This document shows, in pieces, positions 30,041-40,739 of a DNA stretch of 41,052 nucleotides. This DNA comes from Candidatus Bathyarchaeota archaeon. Lineage in GTDB: Archaea; Thermoproteota; Bathyarchaeia; 40CM-2-53-6. A program made the translations under genes and the position numbers. Each line of letters begins with the position of its first letter. Positions within the stretch are counted from its first letter, which is position 1. Under the pieces are notes generated by a model that was given only the letters and a program-made list of their open reading frames with translations, did not search any database and had not been told where the DNA came from. The stretch spans positions 1 to 41,052 of the forward strand of contig VBAX01000057.1 of assembly GCA_005883075.1 (NCBI GenBank). The letters run 5' to 3'.

Positions 30041-30907
30041 TTGGCTGGAACTCAAGGGGAGATCGTTGCCGCTCATAGCTTGGGGTTCCAATACGCCGGT
30101 TCCACTTCGAAAGCTCTCGACGATGTCAATATTGTTATTCGTCAGGGAGAGTTCCTGCTTCTTACGGGCCCGAGTGGTTGTGGAAAGACTACTCTCTGCC
30201 GATGTCTCAACGGTCTTATCCCTAATTTCCACCCTGGAGAGATGTTTGGGGAGCTCTTGGTCGACGGGGTCAGTGTCGCTGCCGAGACGACTAGTGAGCT
30301 TTCTCGGAAAGTTGGCTACGTCTTTCAGAATCCGGAGAACCAGCTTTTCGCATTGACGGTGGAGAAGGATGTGGCTTTTGGACCTGAGAACCTTGGCTTG
30401 ACGAGGGAGGAGATTAGGGGTCGGGTTGACTGGGCCATGGATGCGGCTGGGACAGTTGCGCTCAAGGATCTCGCGCCGTACGAGTTGTCGGGGGGGCAGC
30501 AGCAACGAGTTGCCTTGGCCGGGGTATTGGCGATGAAGCCGAGCGTGATCGTTCTGGACGAGCCGACGTCGTTTTTGGATCCGCGGACTGCTGAGGAGAT
30601 TATGAGTGCGGTGGACGATCTCCGGAGGGAGAATGGGATCACGGTTATCGTTGTTGAGCACCGGTTGGATCTGGTGGGGAGGTATGCGGAGCGTATCGTG
30701 GTTATGGATCACGGAAGGATTGTGGCGGATGGAAAGGTTGAGGATGTTCTCGATTCGGAGTTTGACCGTTTGAGCAGGTTGGGGATTGGTCTTCCAAAGG
30801 TGAGTCTTCTCTGGTCACTGCTCAAGAGAGATGGGCTGGTCTCCGAACGTCTTCCAACACACGTCGAGTCTGCTGTTAAGATGCTGTCCGAGAGGCTCCG
30901 CAACTGA
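30041..30907 (+). CDS. ecfA1: ECF transporter ATP-binding protein EcfA1 (CbiO-like)
   Basis: Energy-coupling ATPase of an ECF-type vitamin/metal importer, 288 aa. VAAHSLGFQYAG precedes Walker A LTGPSGCGKTTLCRCLNGLIP. Then come the Q-loop GYVFQNPENQLFALTVEKDVAFGPENLGL typical of ECF ATPases, the signature LSGGQQQRVALAG and Walker B VIVLDEPTSFLD. The TTG start is preceded by GGAGTGA and AGGAG stretches. It ends CTGA, shared with the EcfA2 start. No substrate-specific S component is in the window, so the cargo is unknown; it may serve several S proteins encoded elsewhere. Confidence 0.95.
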   Translation: MAGTQGEIVAAHSLGFQYAGSTSKALDDVNIVIRQGEFLLLTGPSGCGKTTLCRCLNGLIPNFHPGEMFGELLVDGVSVAAETTSELSRKVGYVFQNPENQLFALTVEKDVAFGPENLGLTREEIRGRVDWAMDAAGTVALKDLAPYELSGGQQQRVALAGVLAMKPSVIVLDEPTSFLDPRTAEEIMSAVDDLRRENGITVIVVEHRLDLVGRYAERIVVMDHGRIVADGKVEDVLDSEFDRLSRLGIGLPKVSLLWSLLKRDGLVSERLPTHVESAVKMLSERLRN

Positions 30908-31746
30908 TCCTTGTCGAGAAGGTCTCGTTCACGTATCCTTCCGGTCAACTGGCGCTCAACTCTGTCGATTTGAAGATCGACAGCGGCGATTTTCTGGCGA
31001 TTATGGGGGAGAACGGTGCCGGGAAGACTACGCTGGCGAAGCAGTTGAATGGTCTGTTGAAACCGACTCTGGGGAGGGTGACGGTCGATGGAGATGACAC
31101 AACGAAGAAGAGCGTTGCTCAACTGTCTAGAAAGGTTGGGATTGTGTTTCAGAATCCCGATCATCTCCTTTTCTCGGAAACAGTTAGGGAGGAGGTTGGG
31201 TTTGCTTTGAAGAACTTCGGCTTCGAGCCTGGTGTGATAGTGAAACAGGTGGAGAGGACCCTTGAGGCTTTTGATCTCGCTCATTACGTGGATATCTCCC
31301 CATTCTTGTTGAGTGGCGGGGAGAGGAAGAGGGTGGCCTTGGCCGCGGTGTTGGCCTGGGAGCCGGACTATCTGATCCTGGACGAGCCTACGATCGGGCA
31401 GGATTACCAGCAGAAGGAGCGGCTGCGCAACTTCATTCTGCAGCTCAACTCACAGGGGAAGGCCGTGGTTATGGTGACTCATGATGTGGAGTTTGTGGCA
31501 GAGTGCAACCCAAAGGTCGTTCTAATGTCGAACGGGAAGGTCTTGGCTCAGGGACAAGCGGACGAGATCTTGTCCGATGATGGTTTGATCGAGAAGGCCT
31601 CGCTAGTTAAGCCTCAGATGGCCAAGTTGTTCAGCCAGTTAGACGGTTTTGGCTTTCCACGAGACGTTGTTGACGTTCACAGGGCGAAGATGCTGTTGGA
31701 GGAGAAGTTGTTGGAGGTGAAGGTTCGTGTCGCTCAGAGTTCTTAA
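30904..31746 (+). CDS. ecfA2: ECF transporter ATP-binding protein EcfA2 (apparent CTG start)
   Basis: Second ATPase of the module, 280 aa from [25 protein letters not shown], Walker [20 protein letters not shown]-loop [28 protein letters not shown], signature [17 protein letters not shown] and Walker [12 protein letters not shown]. The only standard start in frame is TTG 30970, which would delete the first two conserved strands. Upstream the frame is closed by TAA at 30877-30879, and CTG is the only NTG between. CTG overlaps the ecfA1 stop as CTGA, and GAGAGG lies 8 nt before it. Confidence 0.94.
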
Positions 31747-32503
31747 TGGATTCAAGTTCTCAAGCCTCAAGACCCCGGTTCACCGGCTGGACCCGAGGGC
31801 AAAATTCCTCTTGGTAATCGGAATCATCGTGCCTTCGCTCCTGTTCACCAACATCTACCTTCTATCTGCATTGTTGCTCGTGCAGGTTCCGCTGCTCATG
31901 GTTGGCCGTGTTACGAGGCGGTGGGTTCAATCTCTGAGAGCAGGCGTGTTCCTCTCGGCCTTGATCTTTGTCGTGAACTTCTTCACGGGACCGTTGGTGA
32001 ATGCTGTGGCATTGACCCTCCGGTTTCTCCTGTTGATGACTACTTTCAGCTTCTTCTTTATGACCACCTCCCCTGATGATCTCGGGTTGGCGATTGACAA
32101 GGTCGGCTTCATTCGGTGGCTCTCCCGTCGTTGGCTGGGCTATCCGAACGCGCTGTCGTTTACTTTCACGACCGCTGTGCGGCTTGTGCCCACGATGGCG
32201 GTGGACGCGCAGACAGTGGTGGATGCGCAGCGGTCAAGGGGGCTGGAGCTGGACAAGGGAAACCTGTTGAAGCGGGTCCGGAACTATATTCCGATACTTA
32301 TTCCTCTTCTGTTGATCGCAATTAGGAGAAGCCTTGAGCTGGCGGAAGCGCTCGAGGCGCGCGGGTTTCCCGGAAAAGAGGGCCGAACCTCGCTGTTCGA
32401 ACTACAATTCAAGCCTGTAGATTATCTGCTCTTGGGAATATCCCTGGCGGGGATTGTACTGTCTTTCTGGGTCTTCTTCCACTACCACGTCCCAACGATC
32501 TAG
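31727..32503 (+). CDS. ecfT: ECF transporter transmembrane protein EcfT (CbiQ-like)
   Basis: Membrane scaffold that couples the EcfA dimer to an S component. The 258 residues hold several hydrophobic helices (first at [23 protein letters not shown]). The two coupling helices contain the Ala-Arg-Gly type motifs DAQRSRG and LEARGFPG that dock on the ATPases. GTG start inside ecfA2 (20-bp overlap), with the EcfA1-EcfA2-EcfT order usual for the group. Confidence 0.93.
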
Positions 32504-32990: not shown

Positions 32991-33512
32991 ATGGCAAGAA
33001 ATGATCAGACAGGGTACATATTCGCTAAATGCAAAGGAGACCGTGCACACATCATTTCCCAGATCCAGCGTATCCCTACTGTCGAATCCGCTACACCAGT
33101 GACGGGCAGATTCGATCTTGTGATCAAGCTGCGAACCAACGAGCCGACGAAGGCTTTCACCACTATGGAGAAGATCAGGAGCATCCCAAGTATCACAAAC
33201 ACTCAGACAACGATATCCTTCGAGAGCATTATCAACAGCTCAAACCGAGGAGACAACGATAGCCCGCTGGCATTCGCCCTCTTGAAGGTCAGAGGCAGCT
33301 TCGATACGATCTTGCGAAAACTGAAGACGATCCCGAACTTTGCAGAGGCACACGTCATACCTGGAGCGTTCGACATACTGGCGGCTTTCAGGGCTGACAG
33401 CTCCGAGGAGCTTCTGAAAAAGTCCGTTGAGAAGATAGGCAGCATCAACGGAATCACAGCCAGCGAGACCCTCATATCCTACAACCTGCCCGAAAAGTTC
33501 GGACGGTTCTAA
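32991..33512 (+). CDS. Lrp/AsnC-type ligand-binding protein with two RAM domains and no HTH
   Basis: A 173-residue protein formed by two copies of the Lrp effector (RAM) domain. Copy 1 (about 8-80) reads GYIFAKCKGDRAHIISQIQRIPTVESATPVTGRFDLVIKL. Copy 2 (about 92-165) reads FALLKVRGSFDTILRKLKTIPNFAEAHVIPGAFDILAAF. There is no DNA-binding helix-turn-helix. Stand-alone RAM proteins bind amino acids and can modulate full-length Lrp regulators. The gene sits upstream of a peptide-type transporter on the same strand, so an amino-acid sensing role is plausible but unproven. Confidence 0.85.
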   Translation: MARNDQTGYIFAKCKGDRAHIISQIQRIPTVESATPVTGRFDLVIKLRTNEPTKAFTTMEKIRSIPSITNTQTTISFESIINSSNRGDNDSPLAFALLKVRGSFDTILRKLKTIPNFAEAHVIPGAFDILAAFRADSSEELLKKSVEKIGSINGITASETLISYNLPEKFGRF

Positions 33513-33543
33513 ACCCAGAGCATCGAACACTCCAGACACCTCC

Positions 33544-33549
33544 TTTTTT
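33544..33549 (+). terminator. T-rich terminator after the tandem-RAM gene
   Basis: Six T residues in CCTTTTTTC, 32 bp after the stop at 33512. Archaeal RNA polymerase can stop at such T runs without a hairpin. Confidence 0.35.
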
Positions 33550-33710
33550 CTTCGACGAAACCTAGCGAAAGCCATGAGCGGGTGGCCGAATCTTGCACTT
33601 CTAGGTCGCTGGCTCTACTGAGGAAGACCATAGTTGGTTTGGATCTCCCAGACCGAGTAGAAGATGACGTTCCCTGCGGAGAACGATGCGGGCTTGGATA
33701 TCCAACGCGA

Positions 33711-33779
33711 TTTTCCCTATAATGCCCATTCACTACCGTTCCATAGGTACCGTAGCCATAAGGCAGCTTTTTCCCTATA
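33711..33779 (+). repeat. Repeated box TTTTCCCTATA upstream of the transporter operon
   Basis: Identical 11-bp copies at 33711-33721 and 33769-33779, start-to-start distance 58 bp, both ending in a TATA-like CCTATA. They could be two promoters or a pair of operators. The second lies about 56-66 bp before the TTG of the binding-protein gene. Confidence 0.45.
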
Positions 33780-33834
33780 TGACTAGGGCAAGAATAACAC
33801 TGATAAGCCGGTTTTTTGCACGGTCGGAATCAAC

Positions 33835-35616
33835 TTGACCCAAGAGAAAGTCTCGACAGGTGGTTCTTCACTCAGCAAGCTGAAGCAGGGAAAGTACATC
33901 CTCGCGATCCTCATAATAATAATCGTTGTAGGCGCAGCCGTGACTGCTGTCTTCTTTCTTCCCAAGGCCGCTGCGCTTAAGGTAGACGTTGGTGCAGGTC
34001 CTCGAATCCGATTCTTGGGCTTTAACGTTCAGACTCCACCGAAGGACCCAAACGGTGTCGCCATCTCTTCCGATAAGTACGTGAAGGTCCGCCAGGCAAT
34101 CGCCTATGCAGTCGACCGAGACTCGATTAATACCAATGTATTCTTGGGCTTGGCGACCCCCATCTACAGCATGATACCCCCGTCTATGCCGTACTCTCAA
34201 GCAGTCTTCAAGACAAAGTATGGTGCTACACCAAACGTGACTCTGGCACAAAATCTGCTGTCTGCCGCCGGATACAACTCTAGCAAGAATGGGAAGCTCT
34301 ACATTGATCTATGGTACAACAGCGACGGTCACTACGGAGACACGGAACCGTCGGTCGCCCTTGTCGTAAAGACGAGTATTGAGAAGACTGGGATGATTAC
34401 CGTATCTCTGAAATCAGAACCTTGGGCAGCCTATAGAGGAGACCTCGCCAAAGGCAGCTTCTCCTTTTATCTTCTGGGTTGGTATCCTGACTATTTGGAT
34501 GCCGACGACTACGCCGCCCCGTTCTTCGGAACTAGCGGCGCGATCGGTCAAGGGTCGTTTTACAGCAACGCCACGATGGATAACTGGCTCAAGCTAGAAG
34601 CGGGAACTACCAGCGATAACCTGAGAGCGGGAAACTTCACAAACATTCAGAACAAGTCCGCAATTGATGTCCCCTACATTCCTCTCTGGCAACAGACCGC
34701 GGACATTGAATACAAATCCGACATAACAGGAGTCTACCTGCACCCCGTGTCCTTCAAGTACTTCGTAATGAGCAAACCCGGAACAACACAGCTCAATGTA
34801 GGAACAACAGATTCAGTTGTGTGTCTTGACCCTGCCTGCGCATACGACTACTACTCAATTGAGGTGATTAACCAAGTATTCGACACACTGCTAGTCTATT
34901 CTCCCACAAACGCGAGCCTTCTCCCTGGACTAGCGACTCAGGTTCCAACGGTAGCGAACGGGGGAATCTCTCCCGATGCTATGAACTATACCTACCATCT
35001 GCGTCAGGGTGTAAAGTTCACGGATGGAAGCTCGTTCAACGCCACTGTTATGAAGTGGTCGATCGAGCGTGCAATGGGCCTAGGAGACCCTAGCCCGAGC
35101 AACCCGTACTATGGTGGCGGCCTCTATGAGGGAAGCGCGGGGTTCTTGCTTTTCGACTCCGCAAATCTTGGACACATCAACTACTCAACCGGGCCGGGAG
35201 GAGAGACCAACGCAAACATAACCGTCGTCGACCCCTACACCATCAGGTTCCACCTGAAACAGTCGACTGCGTTCTTCAACGAGATAATGGCGTTCTCAGT
35301 GGCTGCACCAGTATCAATGAAGTCGTACCTGAAGGACAAGCCTCAGCCTGACGACCAGAGTCACATAGTCGGAACCGGCCCCTACATGGTAAGCGGTTAC
35401 ACCGTTGACAAACAGGTTGTACTTCAGCAGAACCCCAACTACTATCTTCCAGGCATATACTCCGGGTACGGAATCTCCACGATACCAATAATCAGCCAGA
35501 TCACAATTACCCACTACTCGGATGCGACCGGCCTGAAGAACGCGCTTGTCAGCGGCCAGATCGACATGGCTTATCGAACACTGAATCCAACAGACGTGAA
35601 GTCTCTCCAGCACTGA
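33835..35616 (+). CDS. Circularly permuted SBP_bac_5-type substrate-binding protein
   Basis: Extracellular binding protein of a peptide/nickel-type ABC transporter, 593 aa from TTG. Residues 21-43 form a membrane anchor. Residues 48-314 carry what is normally the C-terminal half of the family: IRFLGFNVQTPP, VRQAIAYAVDRD (85-96), LAQNLLSAAGYN, SFYLLGWYPDYLDADDY and VPYIPLWQ. Residues 315-593 carry what is normally the N-terminal half: LNVGTTDSVVCLDPACAYDYYS, VFDTLLVYSP, YTYHLRQGVKFTDG, VGTGPYMVSGY, VVLQQNPNYY and GQIDMAYRTL, ending SLQH. In normal proteins the GEIDxAxRTL segment directly precedes the IRYxxFN segment, so the order here is a clean circular permutation. Total length is normal and the frame is intact. 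Confidence 0.88.
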   Translation: MTQEKVSTGGSSLSKLKQGKYILAILIIIIVVGAAVTAVFFLPKAAALKVDVGAGPRIRFLGFNVQTPPKDPNGVAISSDKYVKVRQAIAYAVDRDSINTNVFLGLATPIYSMIPPSMPYSQAVFKTKYGATPNVTLAQNLLSAAGYNSSKNGKLYIDLWYNSDGHYGDTEPSVALVVKTSIEKTGMITVSLKSEPWAAYRGDLAKGSFSFYLLGWYPDYLDADDYAAPFFGTSGAIGQGSFYSNATMDNWLKLEAGTTSDNLRAGNFTNIQNKSAIDVPYIPLWQQTADIEYKSDITGVYLHPVSFKYFVMSKPGTTQLNVGTTDSVVCLDPACAYDYYSIEVINQVFDTLLVYSPTNASLLPGLATQVPTVANGGISPDAMNYTYHLRQGVKFTDGSSFNATVMKWSIERAMGLGDPSPSNPYYGGGLYEGSAGFLLFDSANLGHINYSTGPGGETNANITVVDPYTIRFHLKQSTAFFNEIMAFSVAAPVSMKSYLKDKPQPDDQSHIVGTGPYMVSGYTVDKQVVLQQNPNYYLPGIYSGYGISTIPIISQITITHYSDATGLKNALVSGQIDMAYRTLNPTDVKSLQH

Positions 35617-35735
35617 GACAAGATCCAGAAGACCGCTCCGGAGAAGTATCGGCCCGGAGAGGCAGAGACTTCCCACCGGCGGCTCGCCCTCTAACTCTTT
35701 AATTTTGATCTAATGTCTCCGGTATAACGAGTCAG

Positions 35736-36764
35736 TTGCCCAAAAGCGGGTCTCTTGCGGCCTATGCACTCACCCGTCTCTTTCTATCATTGCCAATGCT
35801 GCTCATACTTCTCACGATCGTTTTCGCAGTCCTAAGAGTCATACCCGGCGACCCCATTGCAGCACTTTTCGCGGGCCGCGCCCCGCCAGACGTTGTGGCG
35901 CAGACCAGACACCAGCTAGGCTTAGACTTGCCCTATTGGCAACAATACATCTTCTATCTCGGACAAATTTTCACAGGAAACTTTGGCACCTCCATCGGCG
36001 AGAACTACCACGGAAAGAGCGTGCTGGCAATTATCTTGGACAAGTTGCCCGCCACAGTAGAGTTGGCAATTGGTGCGATGATAGTCGCCTCGATTATCGG
36101 AATTGCCGCGGGAGTTGTATCGGGGACTAATCGCGACAAGCCCTCGGACGTTGCACTACGACTCTATGGAACGATCATCTTCGTCATTCCCGTCTTCTGG
36201 CTGGGCCAGATCCTGCAACTCATATTCGCTGTAGACCTTGGATGGTTTCCAGCCCAGCTGCGATTTTCGGGTCTTCCATTTCCGAACCAAGTCACTGGAT
36301 TGTACACGGTTGACTCACTATTACAAGGTAGACTAGACATGTTCCTCGTGGCGTTGCAGCACCTAGTCCTCCCATCTCTAACGCTTGGCCTGGTTCTCAG
36401 CGGCTTCTTTACGAAGACCGTAAGGGCGAATCTTCTTCGAACCGTAAATGCGGACTACGTCGAGGCAGCGAGGGCCAGAGGCATTCCTGAGGGTAGGATA
36501 ATCTCTCGTTATGCTTTCAAGAACGCGCTTATTCCTGTGGTTACAGTCCTCGGCCTTCAATTCGCGATACTATTCGCTGGCGCAGTGCTCACTGAAAGAA
36601 CGTTTTCCTGGGATGGAATGGGAATGTTGCTTCTCAAAAGCATCGACTCAGCAGATTATCCTATGATTCAAGGGGTCATAGTGGTGTACGCGCTCATCAT
36701 CGTAGGACTCTCTGTAATAATCGATGTTATCAACGGTCTCATCGATCCGAGGGTGCGATACTGA
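35736..36764 (+). CDS. ABC transporter permease, DppB/OppB type
   Basis: Inner permease of the dipeptide/oligopeptide/nickel family, 342 aa. The N-terminal helix (AYALTRLFLSLPMLLILLTIVFAVLRVIPGDP) and the NFGTSI segment mark the OppB group. The coupling EAA loop is DYVEAARARGIPEGRIISRYAFKNALIP and the end is DPRVRY. TTG start 119 nt after the binding-protein gene. The stop overlaps the candidate CTG start of the next permease (CTGA). Confidence 0.95.
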   Translation: MPKSGSLAAYALTRLFLSLPMLLILLTIVFAVLRVIPGDPIAALFAGRAPPDVVAQTRHQLGLDLPYWQQYIFYLGQIFTGNFGTSIGENYHGKSVLAIILDKLPATVELAIGAMIVASIIGIAAGVVSGTNRDKPSDVALRLYGTIIFVIPVFWLGQILQLIFAVDLGWFPAQLRFSGLPFPNQVTGLYTVDSLLQGRLDMFLVALQHLVLPSLTLGLVLSGFFTKTVRANLLRTVNADYVEAARARGIPEGRIISRYAFKNALIPVVTVLGLQFAILFAGAVLTERTFSWDGMGMLLLKSIDSADYPMIQGVIVVYALIIVGLSVIIDVINGLIDPRVRY

Positions 36765-37687
36765 AACCACGACTCAAACTACGTGAAGCATTACTCTCAA
36801 TCTTGGAGTGGCTTCACTCCCGCCTCGTTCGGCCGTTCCGTCCGTTAATCAGGGAAAGGCACACACTGCCCGGAATACTCTCTTGGATAGGTCTCGGAAC
36901 GCTGATAGCGTTTATTCTCGTTGGAATCTTTGGGCCGGTCCTAGTTTCCATTGACCAAACAAAGGCCCTCGCCTATCCCATCCTCCTACCACCGAGTCTC
37001 CAACACGTGATGGGGACCGATGGTATTGGAAGAGACGTTTTCGCCCGCGTCATATGGGGCACTCGGACGTCGCTCATGATCATGGCGATCGGAGCTCTTC
37101 TCGCCCTCGTAGTAGGTTTCCCCATAGGACTCCTGTCGGGTTTTGTTGGGGGCAAGGTTGACCGTGTTTTGGTACTGGTTATGGATTCGGTCTACGCCTT
37201 CCCAGGCTTATTGCTTGCCGCCCTCATCGCTGCAGTCATTGGCAAGGGAATTTTCAACATAGGGATTGCTATTACGGTAATCTACATTCCTCTCTATTTT
37301 CGCGTGACGAGAAATCAGACCTTGTCGACTAGGGAAGAGCTCTACGTCGAGGCTGGCCGAGCACTTGGTGCAAGATCTTGGACGATCATGCTGTCGTATA
37401 TTGCATACAACGTTGTCATAGTTATCCCTGTCATATTCTCCTTGAGCGCGGCGGACACCATCCTTACAGCGGCAGGGCTCAGCTATCTCGGCCTAGGTTT
37501 GGAAATTGACATACCAGGAGACTGGGGACGAGACCTCAGCGATGCCCAAAGATTTCTCGGCTCAGGCATTTGGTGGACGTCCCTTTTCCCCGGACTCATG
37601 ATAATTCTTCTCACAGTAGGCCTGAGTTTCCTGGGAGAGGGACTAAACGATATCATTAACCCGCTCCTCAAGAAGGAGAGAGCCTGA
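36761..37687 (+). CDS. ABC transporter permease, DppC/OppC type
   Basis: Partner permease, about 294-308 aa. It has LLPPSLQHVMGTDGIGRDVFARVIWGTRTSL (the DxxGRD signature of the OppC group), VGFPIGLLSGFVGG, the EAA loop LYVEAGRALGARSW and GLSYLGLGLEIDIPGDWGRDL. The frame is open back to CTG 36761, which overlaps the oppB stop (CTGA) behind GAGGGTG and gives a basic N-terminal lead (KPRLKLREAL). The first standard start is TTG 36803, leaving a 38-nt gap. Either is possible; the coupling favours CTG. Confidence 0.94.
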   Translation: MKPRLKLREALLSILEWLHSRLVRPFRPLIRERHTLPGILSWIGLGTLIAFILVGIFGPVLVSIDQTKALAYPILLPPSLQHVMGTDGIGRDVFARVIWGTRTSLMIMAIGALLALVVGFPIGLLSGFVGGKVDRVLVLVMDSVYAFPGLLLAALIAAVIGKGIFNIGIAITVIYIPLYFRVTRNQTLSTREELYVEAGRALGARSWTIMLSYIAYNVVIVIPVIFSLSAADTILTAAGLSYLGLGLEIDIPGDWGRDLSDAQRFLGSGIWWTSLFPGLMIILLTVGLSFLGEGLNDIINPLLKKERA

Positions 37688-37688
37688 T

Positions 37689-38645
37689 ACGGAGCCTCTG
37701 CTCGAAATAGAGAATCTCTCCGTCCGCTACTCGACGAGACGAGGTCAAGTCGGAGCCCTCGACCAAATCCATCTAATCGTGCGGAAGGGAGAGACTCTGG
37801 GAGTAGTTGGCGAAACGGGTTGCGGGAAATCGACATTGGGGAAAGCGATTCTCGGAATCCTTCCCGTAGGGACCCAGGTGGAAGGGAAGATCCTGTTTCG
37901 CGGCAGGGACCTCACTATGCTAACCAATCAAATGTATCGACGGTTGCGAGGCGAGGAAATCGCCCTGATCTTCCAAGACCCTATGACCAGGCTCAACCCT
38001 CTCATGACCGTTCAAGACCACTTCATAGAGGAGATTCAAGCACACGAACCCGTCTCCTCAACCGAGGCCAGGACACGAGCCCGCGAAGCGCTCATTTCAA
38101 TGGGAATCCACGAGGCACGGATCAGAAACTATCCTCACGAGTTCTCCGGAGGAATGCGCCAGCGCATCATGATCGCCTTAGCTCTAGTTCTAAAGCCCTC
38201 GCTGCTTATCGCTGACGAGCCTACAACTTCTCTTGATGTTATTGTTGAGGCCCAGATTCTTGAGATTCTCCAAGATCTCAAACAAGCCTACAGCATGTCT
38301 CTTTTGCTCATCACACACAATCTTGGAATTGTCGCCGAAGTCTGTGATCGTGTCGCGGTCCTATACGCCGGAAAACTCGTCGAGCTGGGTTCCGTCCGGG
38401 ACATTTTTCACAAGCCGCTCCATCCTTACACACAGGGCCTTCTCTCATCGATCATACATCTAGAAACAAAGGAGCTGCATTCGATTGAGGGAAGTCCTCC
38501 AGATCTGATAGCGCCACCATCAGGTTGCCGCTTCCACCCGCGATGCTCATTTGCTCAATCGATCTGTATGGAGAAGGTTCCCCCGCTGGTCGAGTTCGAG
38601 CCTGGACATTTTGCCGCGTGTCATTTCGGAGACAAGTTCTTATGA
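37689..38645 (+). CDS. ABC transporter ATP-binding protein, DppD/OppD type (apparent ACG or CTG start)
   Basis: Transport ATPase of the operon. EPLLEIENLSVRYSTRRGQVGAL leads to Walker A GETGCGKSTLGKAILG, the signature EFSGGMRQRIMIA, Walker B LLIADEPTTSLD and the C-terminal cysteine cluster [15 protein letters not shown], which binds an iron-sulfur cluster in some relatives. The first standard start, GTG 37779, would remove the first 30 residues including the A-loop strand. In frame a TAA lies at 37644-37646. Between it and the conserved region the only candidates are ACG 37689 (11 nt after the GGAG of AAGGAG) and CTG 37698. I list the ACG. Confidence 0.93.
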   Translation, partial: TEPLLEIENLSVRYSTRRGQVGALDQIHLIVRKGETLGVVGETGCGKSTLGKAILGILPVGTQVEGKILFRGRDLTMLTNQMYRRLRGEEIALIFQDPMTRLNPLMTVQDHFIEEIQAHEPVSSTEARTRAREALISMGIHEARIRNYPHEFSGGMRQRIMIALALVLKPSLLIADEPTTSLDVIVEAQILEILQDLKQAYSMSLLLITHNLGIVAEVCDRVAVLYAGKLVELGSVRDIFHKPLHPYTQGLLSSIIHLETKELHSIEGSPPDLIAPPSGCRFHPRCSFAQSICMEKVPPLVEFEPGHFAACHFGDKFL

Positions 38646-39949
38646 GCGCTCCAGTGGTCGCGGTTCAGGGCGAGCCGGCCAACGAGCTGCTCAGGCTCGA
38701 CAATCTTAAGGTCCATTTTCCCGTGAAGTTGCCTTTCATCCAGCGCCTCCTGCAGAGAGAGGAGGCTGTCGTCCACGCTGTTGATGGCGTCTCGTTTGGA
38801 ATTCGTGCCGGAGAGATATTGGGCCTTGTCGGCGAGAGCGGCTGCGGGAAGTCCACGGTAGGTAGGTCATGTGTCAGGCTGATCAAACCCACATCGGGCC
38901 GGATTTTCTTCGCAGGTCAAAATATCACAAAGCTCGGTGGGGAGAATCTGCGGGCCTTGAGGAGGAGGATTCAGATCATATTCCAGGATCCTCACGCATC
39001 GCTTACCCCGGCTATGACGATCGGGCGCGGAATTGGGCATCCTCTCTGGATTCACCGCTCTGCTTTTGGCCCCCAAAAGTCGGGCTCTGAGGCGTTCGGG
39101 CAATGGGTTCGACAACGAGTGTTGAATACGATGAGAGAAGTCGGGCTTACGCCAGAAGAGCAGCTGTACGACAAATTTCCGGGTGATCTGAGTGGAGGCC
39201 AGAAGCAGCGTGCTGTGATCGCGCGAGCGTTGATTCTGGAACCGAACCTGTTGGTAGTGGATGAGGGAGTGTCCATGCTTGACATGTCGATCAGGGCTAA
39301 GGTGCTGGAGCTGATGCTTGACCTCAAGCGCCGACATGGTTTGACCTATCTCTTCATCACTCATGATCTGGCAACTGCGAAGTTCATCTGCGATCGAATA
39401 GCGATCATGTACATGGGTAGGATTGTTGAAATCGGCCCGGCTAGGGAGATCTATGCGGATCCCAAGCATCCGTATACCAAGGCATTGCTCCAAGTCATCC
39501 CGATACCTGATCCGGACAAAAGAAAGGAGAAGGTCTTGCCGAGGGGTGAAGTGCCGGACGCTGTTCATCCGCCAGCCGGATGCAGGTTTCACCCGAGATG
39601 CCCAGCTGTTCTCGCCACTTGTGGCTGGGAGGGCCGCGACTTCGTTGATTTTCTGGATGAGCACCTGTCCGACCCGAAAAGAGCGGGTGATGACGAGAGT
39701 ATTGTAGGGCCTATCGAGGGCTGGCATGCAGACGGCCTGGTCGCCAGCCTGGAGGCCAAGCCGATGAGTGTTGAGAAAGCAGTTGAAAGGGTCGAGACTA
39801 TTCTCGCAGAGGCCCCTGTGGCGATGACTCAGGCCATCGAATCCGTATCCGCGCAGAAGAGAACAGTGATGGTTCGTTTCCACCCGCCAAACCAGTTGCG
39901 CCAGACGCAAGTTCAGGATAGGCTCGTGGAGTGCCTTCTCTACCAATAG
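38642..39949 (+). CDS. ABC transporter ATP-binding protein, DppF/OppF type, with C-terminal extension
   Basis: Second transport ATPase, 435 aa from ATG 38642 (ATGA overlap with oppD). [14 protein letters not shown], Walker [15 protein letters not shown]-loop [13 protein letters not shown], signature [16 protein letters not shown] and the cysteine-containing [15 protein letters not shown]. Walker B reads [14 protein letters not shown], so the usual DEPVSALD has Gly for Pro and Met for Ala. The last ~110 residues after the cysteine cluster ([16 protein letters not shown], then [13 protein letters not shown]) are longer than in most OppF proteins. Third positions are G/T-rich, unlike the C/A-rich oppB-oppC-oppD, hinting at a different origin. 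Confidence 0.94.
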
Positions 39950-40097: not shown

Positions 40098-40739
40098 CTG
40101 TCGTCACAATTCAGCTCTGGAGAAATCCTTTCCATCATCGTCGCCTGGATCGTGCTCTCTGTCGCAATCACTTACCAAAAGCTTGTTGGTCTACTGACAG
40201 GAGCAGGCAGTCTTGATGTTGTGATAGCCGGCTTTGTCGCCACGGCGACTGGATTCATCCTTCACGAAATGGGACACAAGTTTGTCGCGATACGACGGGG
40301 ATATCTCGCCCATTTCCGTCTCTGGATCTGGGGACTTGTTCTCACCATATCCATTGTAACCATCTCGGGCGGAGGACTCGTCTTCGGCGCTCCAGGAGCG
40401 GTTTACATTTCCCCTTCCGCAGCTGGGTTCTACGGGTACAATTCAAGTCGAGGAACTAGCGATCCGGAAGAGGACAATATGATAATCTCGGCAGCTGGAC
40501 CGGGAATCAATCTTGGATTCGCCATCTTTTTCTTGGTCGTGTTGTTTTCTGTTCCAGTTGGCTTCCTCTATACAGTTGCCCTTTTTGGGCTCTTGCTTAA
40601 CGTGGGACTTGGATCCTTCAACATGCTGCCAGTCCCTCCCCTAGACGGCTCGAAGATCTTCCGGAAGAGCGTCCCAGTCGCACTTGCAATAGCCCTTCCA
40701 TTGTGGGCGATGTTCATAACCTTCAACTTCATCATATAG
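40098..40739 (+). CDS. M50-family (site-2 protease type) membrane metalloprotease
   Basis: Intramembrane zinc protease of the S2P/SpoIVFB type, about 213 aa from CTG 40098. The zinc-binding HEMGH is at residues 56-60, followed by VAIRRGYLAHFRLW. ISAAGPGINLGFAIFF is the family's conserved glycine/asparagine helix and FNMLPVPPLDG supplies the third zinc ligand. The first standard start (GTG 40152) would cut the first membrane helix (ILSIIVAWIVLSVAI) in half, so the protein must begin upstream. CTG 40098 after AGGTAG is the best candidate. Substrates are unknown; archaeal members are poorly studied. Confidence 0.88.
   Translation: MSSQFSSGEILSIIVAWIVLSVAITYQKLVGLLTGAGSLDVVIAGFVATATGFILHEMGHKFVAIRRGYLAHFRLWIWGLVLTISIVTISGGGLVFGAPGAVYISPSAAGFYGYNSSRGTSDPEEDNMIISAAGPGINLGFAIFFLVVLFSVPVGFLYTVALFGLLLNVGLGSFNMLPVPPLDGSKIFRKSVPVALAIALPLWAMFITFNFII

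Follow-up and report, generated by a model that had tools for sequence, protein, structure and literature searches.

A binding-protein gene with its halves in reversed order

The stretch of DNA that we analysed (the window; 41,052 nucleotides) contains an SBP_bac_5 gene that is read as a single uninterrupted frame of 593 codons, from a TTG start codon at 33835 to a stop codon at 35614–35616 (Table 1). The Pfam profile of the family (PF00496) matches the 593-amino-acid protein in two stretches that come in reversed order (E 3.1e-72), and the score of 244 bits, against a curated cut-off of 32.4, establishes homology to the family. Searched alone, residues 48–316 match profile positions 194–365 (E 1.8e-33) and residues 317–593 match positions 5–183 (E 3.6e-37); each half thus passes Pfam SBP_bac_5 separately, and the canonical N-to-C order of SBP_bac_5/cluster C proteins is not met. 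In an alignment to PDB entry 4gl8, residues 82–252 correspond to chain positions 302–462 and residues 319–538 to positions 33–230; the PDB relatives, among the matches listed, are proteins of the OppA/DppA/NikA type, with E values down to 6e-32. An earlier note, made without database searches, had proposed swapped SBP_bac_5 halves within one uninterrupted frame of this length. The Pfam, split-half and PDB alignments confirm this, and the domain search rules out the usual order, which would have refuted it. Because the scores are far past chance level and the same order is found in independent assemblies, the reversal does not reflect chance.

We name the segments of the canonical chain A-B-C, where A is the first half (LNVGTTDS to AYRTLNP), B runs from IRFLGFN to LLSAAGYN, and C runs from LYIDLWYNSDG to FKYFVM. 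In these terms the window protein reads anchor-B-C-A, and SKPGTTQ is the linker from C to A. Segment B, which canonically starts lobe 2 directly past the hinge, here comes after the anchor; segment C supplies the remainder of lobe 2 and the canonical C-terminal end; and segment A, canonically N-terminal (lobe 1), is now C-terminal and ends AYRTLNPTDVKSLQH. The alignment runs unbroken across the new junction in four B-C-A proteins and in many proteins with a second permuted order, C-A-B, described below. Judged by these profile matches, the window protein is a homologous topological variant of SBP_bac_5 and not a canonical member.

Table 1. Features of the permuted gene and its operon (window positions).
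Feature	Position	Strand	Basis and remarks
Promoter-like element AAGAATAACACTGATAAGC	33790–33808	+	DNA alignment; conserved upstream of B-C-A and C-A-B relatives
Permuted SBP_bac_5 gene	33835–35616	+	593 codons
Leader MTQ... and N-terminal transmembrane anchor	33835–33975	+	Residues 1–47, helix 19–40; hydropathy, model helix, leader kept in both permutation types
Segment B	33976–34284	+	Residues 48–150; segment profiles; DppA residue 265 aligns near residue 59
Segment C	34285–34770	+	Residues 151–312; segment profiles; Pfam positions to 365
New junction SKPGTTQ	34771–34791	+	Residues 313–319; old C-terminus joined to old N-terminus
Segment A	34792–35613	+	Residues 320–593; Pfam positions 5–183; segment profiles
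DppB/OppB-type permease	35736–36764	+	NCBIfam; syntenic in relatives
DppC/OppC-type permease	36803–37687	+	NCBIfam; synteny
DppD/OppD-type ATPase	37779–38645	+	NCBIfam; synteny; listed start probably too late
DppF/OppF-type ATPase	38525–39949	+	NCBIfam; synteny; listed start probably too early

The surroundings of the gene are those of a Dpp/Opp-type importer. Specifically, DppB-C-D-F lie directly downstream and provide the expected permease and ATPase context, the order binding protein-DppB-C-D-F is kept in relatives with enough flanking DNA, and DppB identity between members of the window clade, B-C-A and C-A-B alike, is 52–93%. On this synteny, the permuted gene holds the binding-protein position of an ordinary Dpp/Opp-type operon. 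Upstream, in most genes of the genus, whether B-C-A or C-A-B, an element close to AATAACACTCATAAG lies ~30–60 bases before the start, and most share a leader starting MTQ or MAQ; we infer that the copy in the window acts as a promoter. As far as these comparisons go, the front of the gene stayed in place while the domain behind it rotated. Farther out, the window encodes an energy-coupling-factor transporter module of two ATPases and a CbiQ-like T component (30041–32503), just upstream of the gene a stand-alone protein that carries two Lrp/AsnC ligand-binding (RAM) domains and lacks a recognisable helix-turn-helix (32991–33512), and downstream of the operon a small M50-type (site-2 protease-like) membrane protein (40152–40739).

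Conservation of the permuted order

The source genome is a draft metagenome-assembled genome (MAG) of 147 contigs that is 87.6% complete, and a misassembly between tandem canonical binding-protein genes therefore had to be weighed. However, the identical order and junction occur in other MAGs at 60–84% identity: full-length B-C-A orthologues are found in three of them (L002/L031, 84%; L003/L032, 78%; L004/L033, 60%), and a fourth holds a truncated orthologue (L009/L038, 81%). These named orthologues of the window clade are all from MAGs; a permuted relative (L129) lies within a single-contig genome of 1.83 Mb. Between the window gene and L031, synonymous sites are close to saturation and amino-acid changes are few, with a dN/dS of 0.064 overall and of 0.016 over residues 300–335, which span the new junction. 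We give this ratio for the L031 pair only; synonymous sites are saturated in the remaining pairs. The orthologues and these ratios argue that the B-C-A order has long been maintained by selection. A protein search found no second binding-protein copy in the genome or the window, so that the gene is the single copy found; no duplication remnant was detected beside it at 33513–33834 or 35617–35735, and a repeat search around it returned short chance pairs only. The independent orthologues, the purifying selection and the single-contig relative lead us to reject misassembly, which the earlier note had listed as a refuter and for which practically no room is left. It is also conceivable that the chain is permuted but that its transport function was lost, the protein now being a sensor or adhesin, as permutation could upset docking to the permease and transport data are lacking. 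We give this little credence: in relatives whose flanks are long enough to tell, the gene sits in the binding-protein slot of a DppB-C-D-F operon, the protein is under strong constraint, and the permease genes are conserved alongside it.

The hinge and the position of the anchor

Because the AlphaFold models are weak and there is no experiment, we infer the folded topology from the sequence and from what holds for the family. The model of the window protein has a mean pLDDT of 55.5 and a pTM of 0.47, with segments B and C modelled best, and that of a C-A-B relative has a mean pLDDT of 42.7 and a pTM of 0.33; the low confidence is probably due to alignments limited to 12–13 sequences. In a Foldseek search with the low-confidence window model, the top matches are all OppA/DppA-type (cluster C) proteins, with E about 1e-13. 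They align over only ~255 columns, or half the protein, as expected when a sequential aligner is given a permuted chain.

Segment B starts at the equivalent of the crossover between the lobes: DppA residue 265, which we take to be the domain boundary of DppA, pairs with residue ~59 of the window protein. Cluster C proteins shut over their ligand in the manner of a Venus flytrap, and a scoop motif of the permease enters the cleft (PMC12136057). In AliD, lobe 1 consists of residues 29–296 and 583–617 and lobe 2 of residues 297–582 (PMC11192437), which places both termini in lobe 1. In AliC of pneumococcus, the hinge loop that joins lobe 1 to lobe 2 (residues 290–294) mediates dimerisation by domain swapping (PMC11192437), an instance of the family tolerating an opened hinge. 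Unlike the rearrangement in the window protein, the AliC swap takes place between two unpermuted chains and leaves the gene order unchanged. With the old termini linked by seven residues and the chain opened at the inter-lobe crossover, the rearrangement would be structurally mild.

We infer that the anchor enters the window protein at the hinge and not at lobe 1, and that it enters lobe 2 in those C-A-B proteins that have an N-terminal anchor; such shifts might alter lobe dynamics or docking. In other C-A-B proteins and in some with a split A segment (see below), the N-terminus is signal-like instead and a membrane helix lies at the C-terminus. At the level of sequence, several proposals of the earlier note are borne out, namely that this SBP_bac_5 protein is circularly permuted, that its new termini lie at the lobe hinge and that its anchor has shifted to the hinge side; its further proposal, that the old termini are fused by a short 'PGTT' linker, holds as well, as SKPGTTQ contains this motif.

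Permuted relatives in other archaea

The same genus contains proteins with the order anchor-C-A-B in one frame (L005, L006, L007 and L008), and this form is also present in two labelled Euryarchaeota (L034, L037) and in L087 and L089–L095. These C-A-B relatives, congeners included, occupy the same operon position as the window protein and have a homologous promoter and anchor. We surveyed archaeal genomes, leaving bacterial genomes outside the scope, with a profile of the C-to-A junction, which is present only in permuted or tandem proteins; it was run on 398 Thermoproteota genomes and on 200 genomes of the class of L034 (labelled Euryarchaeota). At least 58 of the 398 Thermoproteota genomes gave junction-spanning matches, with individual loci inspected for part of these only, and permuted SBP_bac_5 proteins were also found in the class of L034. 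Typing of L056–L115 with separate A, B and C profiles gave 23 C-A-B, 13 split-A (A2-B-C-A1), 5 B-C-A and 1 split-C (C2-A-B-C1) proteins, a tally that includes a few repeats of loci already analysed; the further loci inspected, L129 among them, were permuted without exception (20 of 20). The window protein belongs to a larger set of archaeal permutants and is not singular, which is the sole amendment to the original observation.

Archaeal permutants are cut at about five points: inside A, near A-profile position 205; at the A/B hinge, as in the window protein; directly past the first strand of B, in L069, L077 and L078, whose C-terminal tails end in an FLGFNF-like strand; at the B/C boundary; and inside C. 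In addition, L113 and L115 (~2252 and ~2368 amino acids), from two genomes, are single frames with at least two complete A-B-C units in tandem, likely with extra domains. Their copies are old and divergent, and such frames indicate that in-frame duplication happens. By these counts, rearrangement of the chain of this archaeal binding protein is a recurring evolutionary event in a soil archaeon and its relatives, not a one-off.

In proteins of the split-A class (L066–L085), ~100 extra residues follow A1 and precede the C-terminal membrane helix; they probably form a beta-rich stalk domain. The binding-protein genes of L075, L096, L098 and L030 are in two frames or interrupted by stops, reflecting either sequencing errors or decaying copies.

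Number of origins and path of the rearrangement

When topology is mapped on a tree built from 96 rotated sequences, 10 changes of label are required, and permuted groups are scattered among the canonical ones at about seven separate positions. This suggests about seven separate origins of permutation; the branches are long, and individual placements are uncertain. If instead one ancient permutation lay behind all permuted forms, the interspersed canonical forms would be reversions. Such a history would suit the clustering of topology on the tree and the age of the permuted groups, but it is unlikely given that the cut points differ among groups, that permuted and canonical groups interleave on well-supported branches, and that the PDB relatives listed show the canonical order. 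Within the window clade, four B-C-A and 14 C-A-B proteins form one clade with 100/100 support, and its sister is canonical. The binding-protein tree groups the C-A-B forms with weak support (82/84) and leaves the order of B-C-A and C-A-B unresolved. This, and the existence of tandem A-B-C-A-B-C frames in other archaea, would allow each form to have arisen on its own from a tandem or overlapping intermediate common to both. However, the DppB tree nests B-C-A operons among C-A-B operons and rejects C-A-B as one clade (AU p 0.022), suggesting that B-C-A came from an already permuted C-A-B ancestor. With moderate confidence, we place C-A-B between A-B-C and B-C-A on the likeliest path to the window protein; independent derivation from a shared intermediate is the less probable course, though a possibility that we cannot dismiss.

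We hold with high confidence that the gene encodes a cluster C binding protein whose circular permutation is natural and genuine, and that this protein is the membrane-tethered receptor of a Dpp/Opp-type importer, DppBCDF, its fold, binding and transport being inferred. This reading rests on the reversed segments, on their conservation in independent genomes, on purifying selection, on the operon around the gene and on the set of archaeal cut points. The permuted chain would fold into the usual two-lobed Venus flytrap, the old N- and C-termini, both in lobe 1, being bridged by the seven-residue linker; the chain would be opened at the crossover between the lobes, and the tether would be shifted from lobe 1 to the inter-lobe hinge. 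Most likely, the extracellular part was duplicated in tandem and in frame while promoter, leader and anchor stayed fixed ahead of it; a front deletion and a back truncation would then have followed, and the window lineage probably passed through a C-A-B form on the way. Duplication followed by trimming, as proposed in the earlier note, is therefore still a likely route, although one such event from the canonical form may not suffice, given the suggested C-A-B ancestor. More broadly, we lean towards the view that archaeal tethered cluster C binding proteins are a hot spot of circular permutation, in which rotations of the extracellular domain would have recurred, at about five cut points and even twice in one lineage, with promoter and anchor fixed; the tether would thereby have moved between lobe 1, hinge and lobe 2, with the same permease still served.

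Relation to known binding proteins

Canonical cluster C proteins (PF00496; OppA, DppA, NikA) are homologous to the window protein across the extracellular part and have the same operon partners; they differ from it in the order A-B-C rather than B-C-A, and in an anchor at lobe 1 rather than at the hinge. None of the 60 PDB chains listed spans a C-to-A junction, and full-text searches of open-licence literature brought up no permutant among cluster C or archaeal binding proteins, in agreement with the earlier note, which knew of no described permuted member of the family. A permutant from another cluster has been described: TpMglB-2 of Treponema pallidum ('Type Ic / Cluster Bc') is a permuted cluster B binding protein, and its authors proposed that permutation suits tethering (PMC4990184). 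Both it and the window protein are naturally circularly permuted, membrane-tethered binding proteins of ABC importers. Unlike the window protein, TpMglB-2 has a cluster B (sugar) fold, its cut point is a different one, with N-lobe strands moved to the C-terminus, one topology is represented, and it is bacterial. The window protein thus shares with it circular permutation, but not the cluster B fold or MglB homology, as SBP_bac_5 is the only Pfam family that it matches and its PDB relatives, among those listed, are of the OppA/DppA/NikA type.

With the window protein, a known family gains a new topological variant; the larger finding is that permutation recurs across archaea. Circular permutations in nature are commonly regarded as rare, old events, recognised when distant families are compared. 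Here, the canonical, B-C-A and C-A-B forms share one operon context and both permuted forms occur in one genus, so that the path of topology change can be traced in close relatives. One receptor family with its anchor at different points of the body also provides a direct test of the idea, put forward for TpMglB-2, that permutation adapts a binding protein to tethering. Routine domain searches label the permutants plain SBP_bac_5, which hides the phenomenon in annotation.
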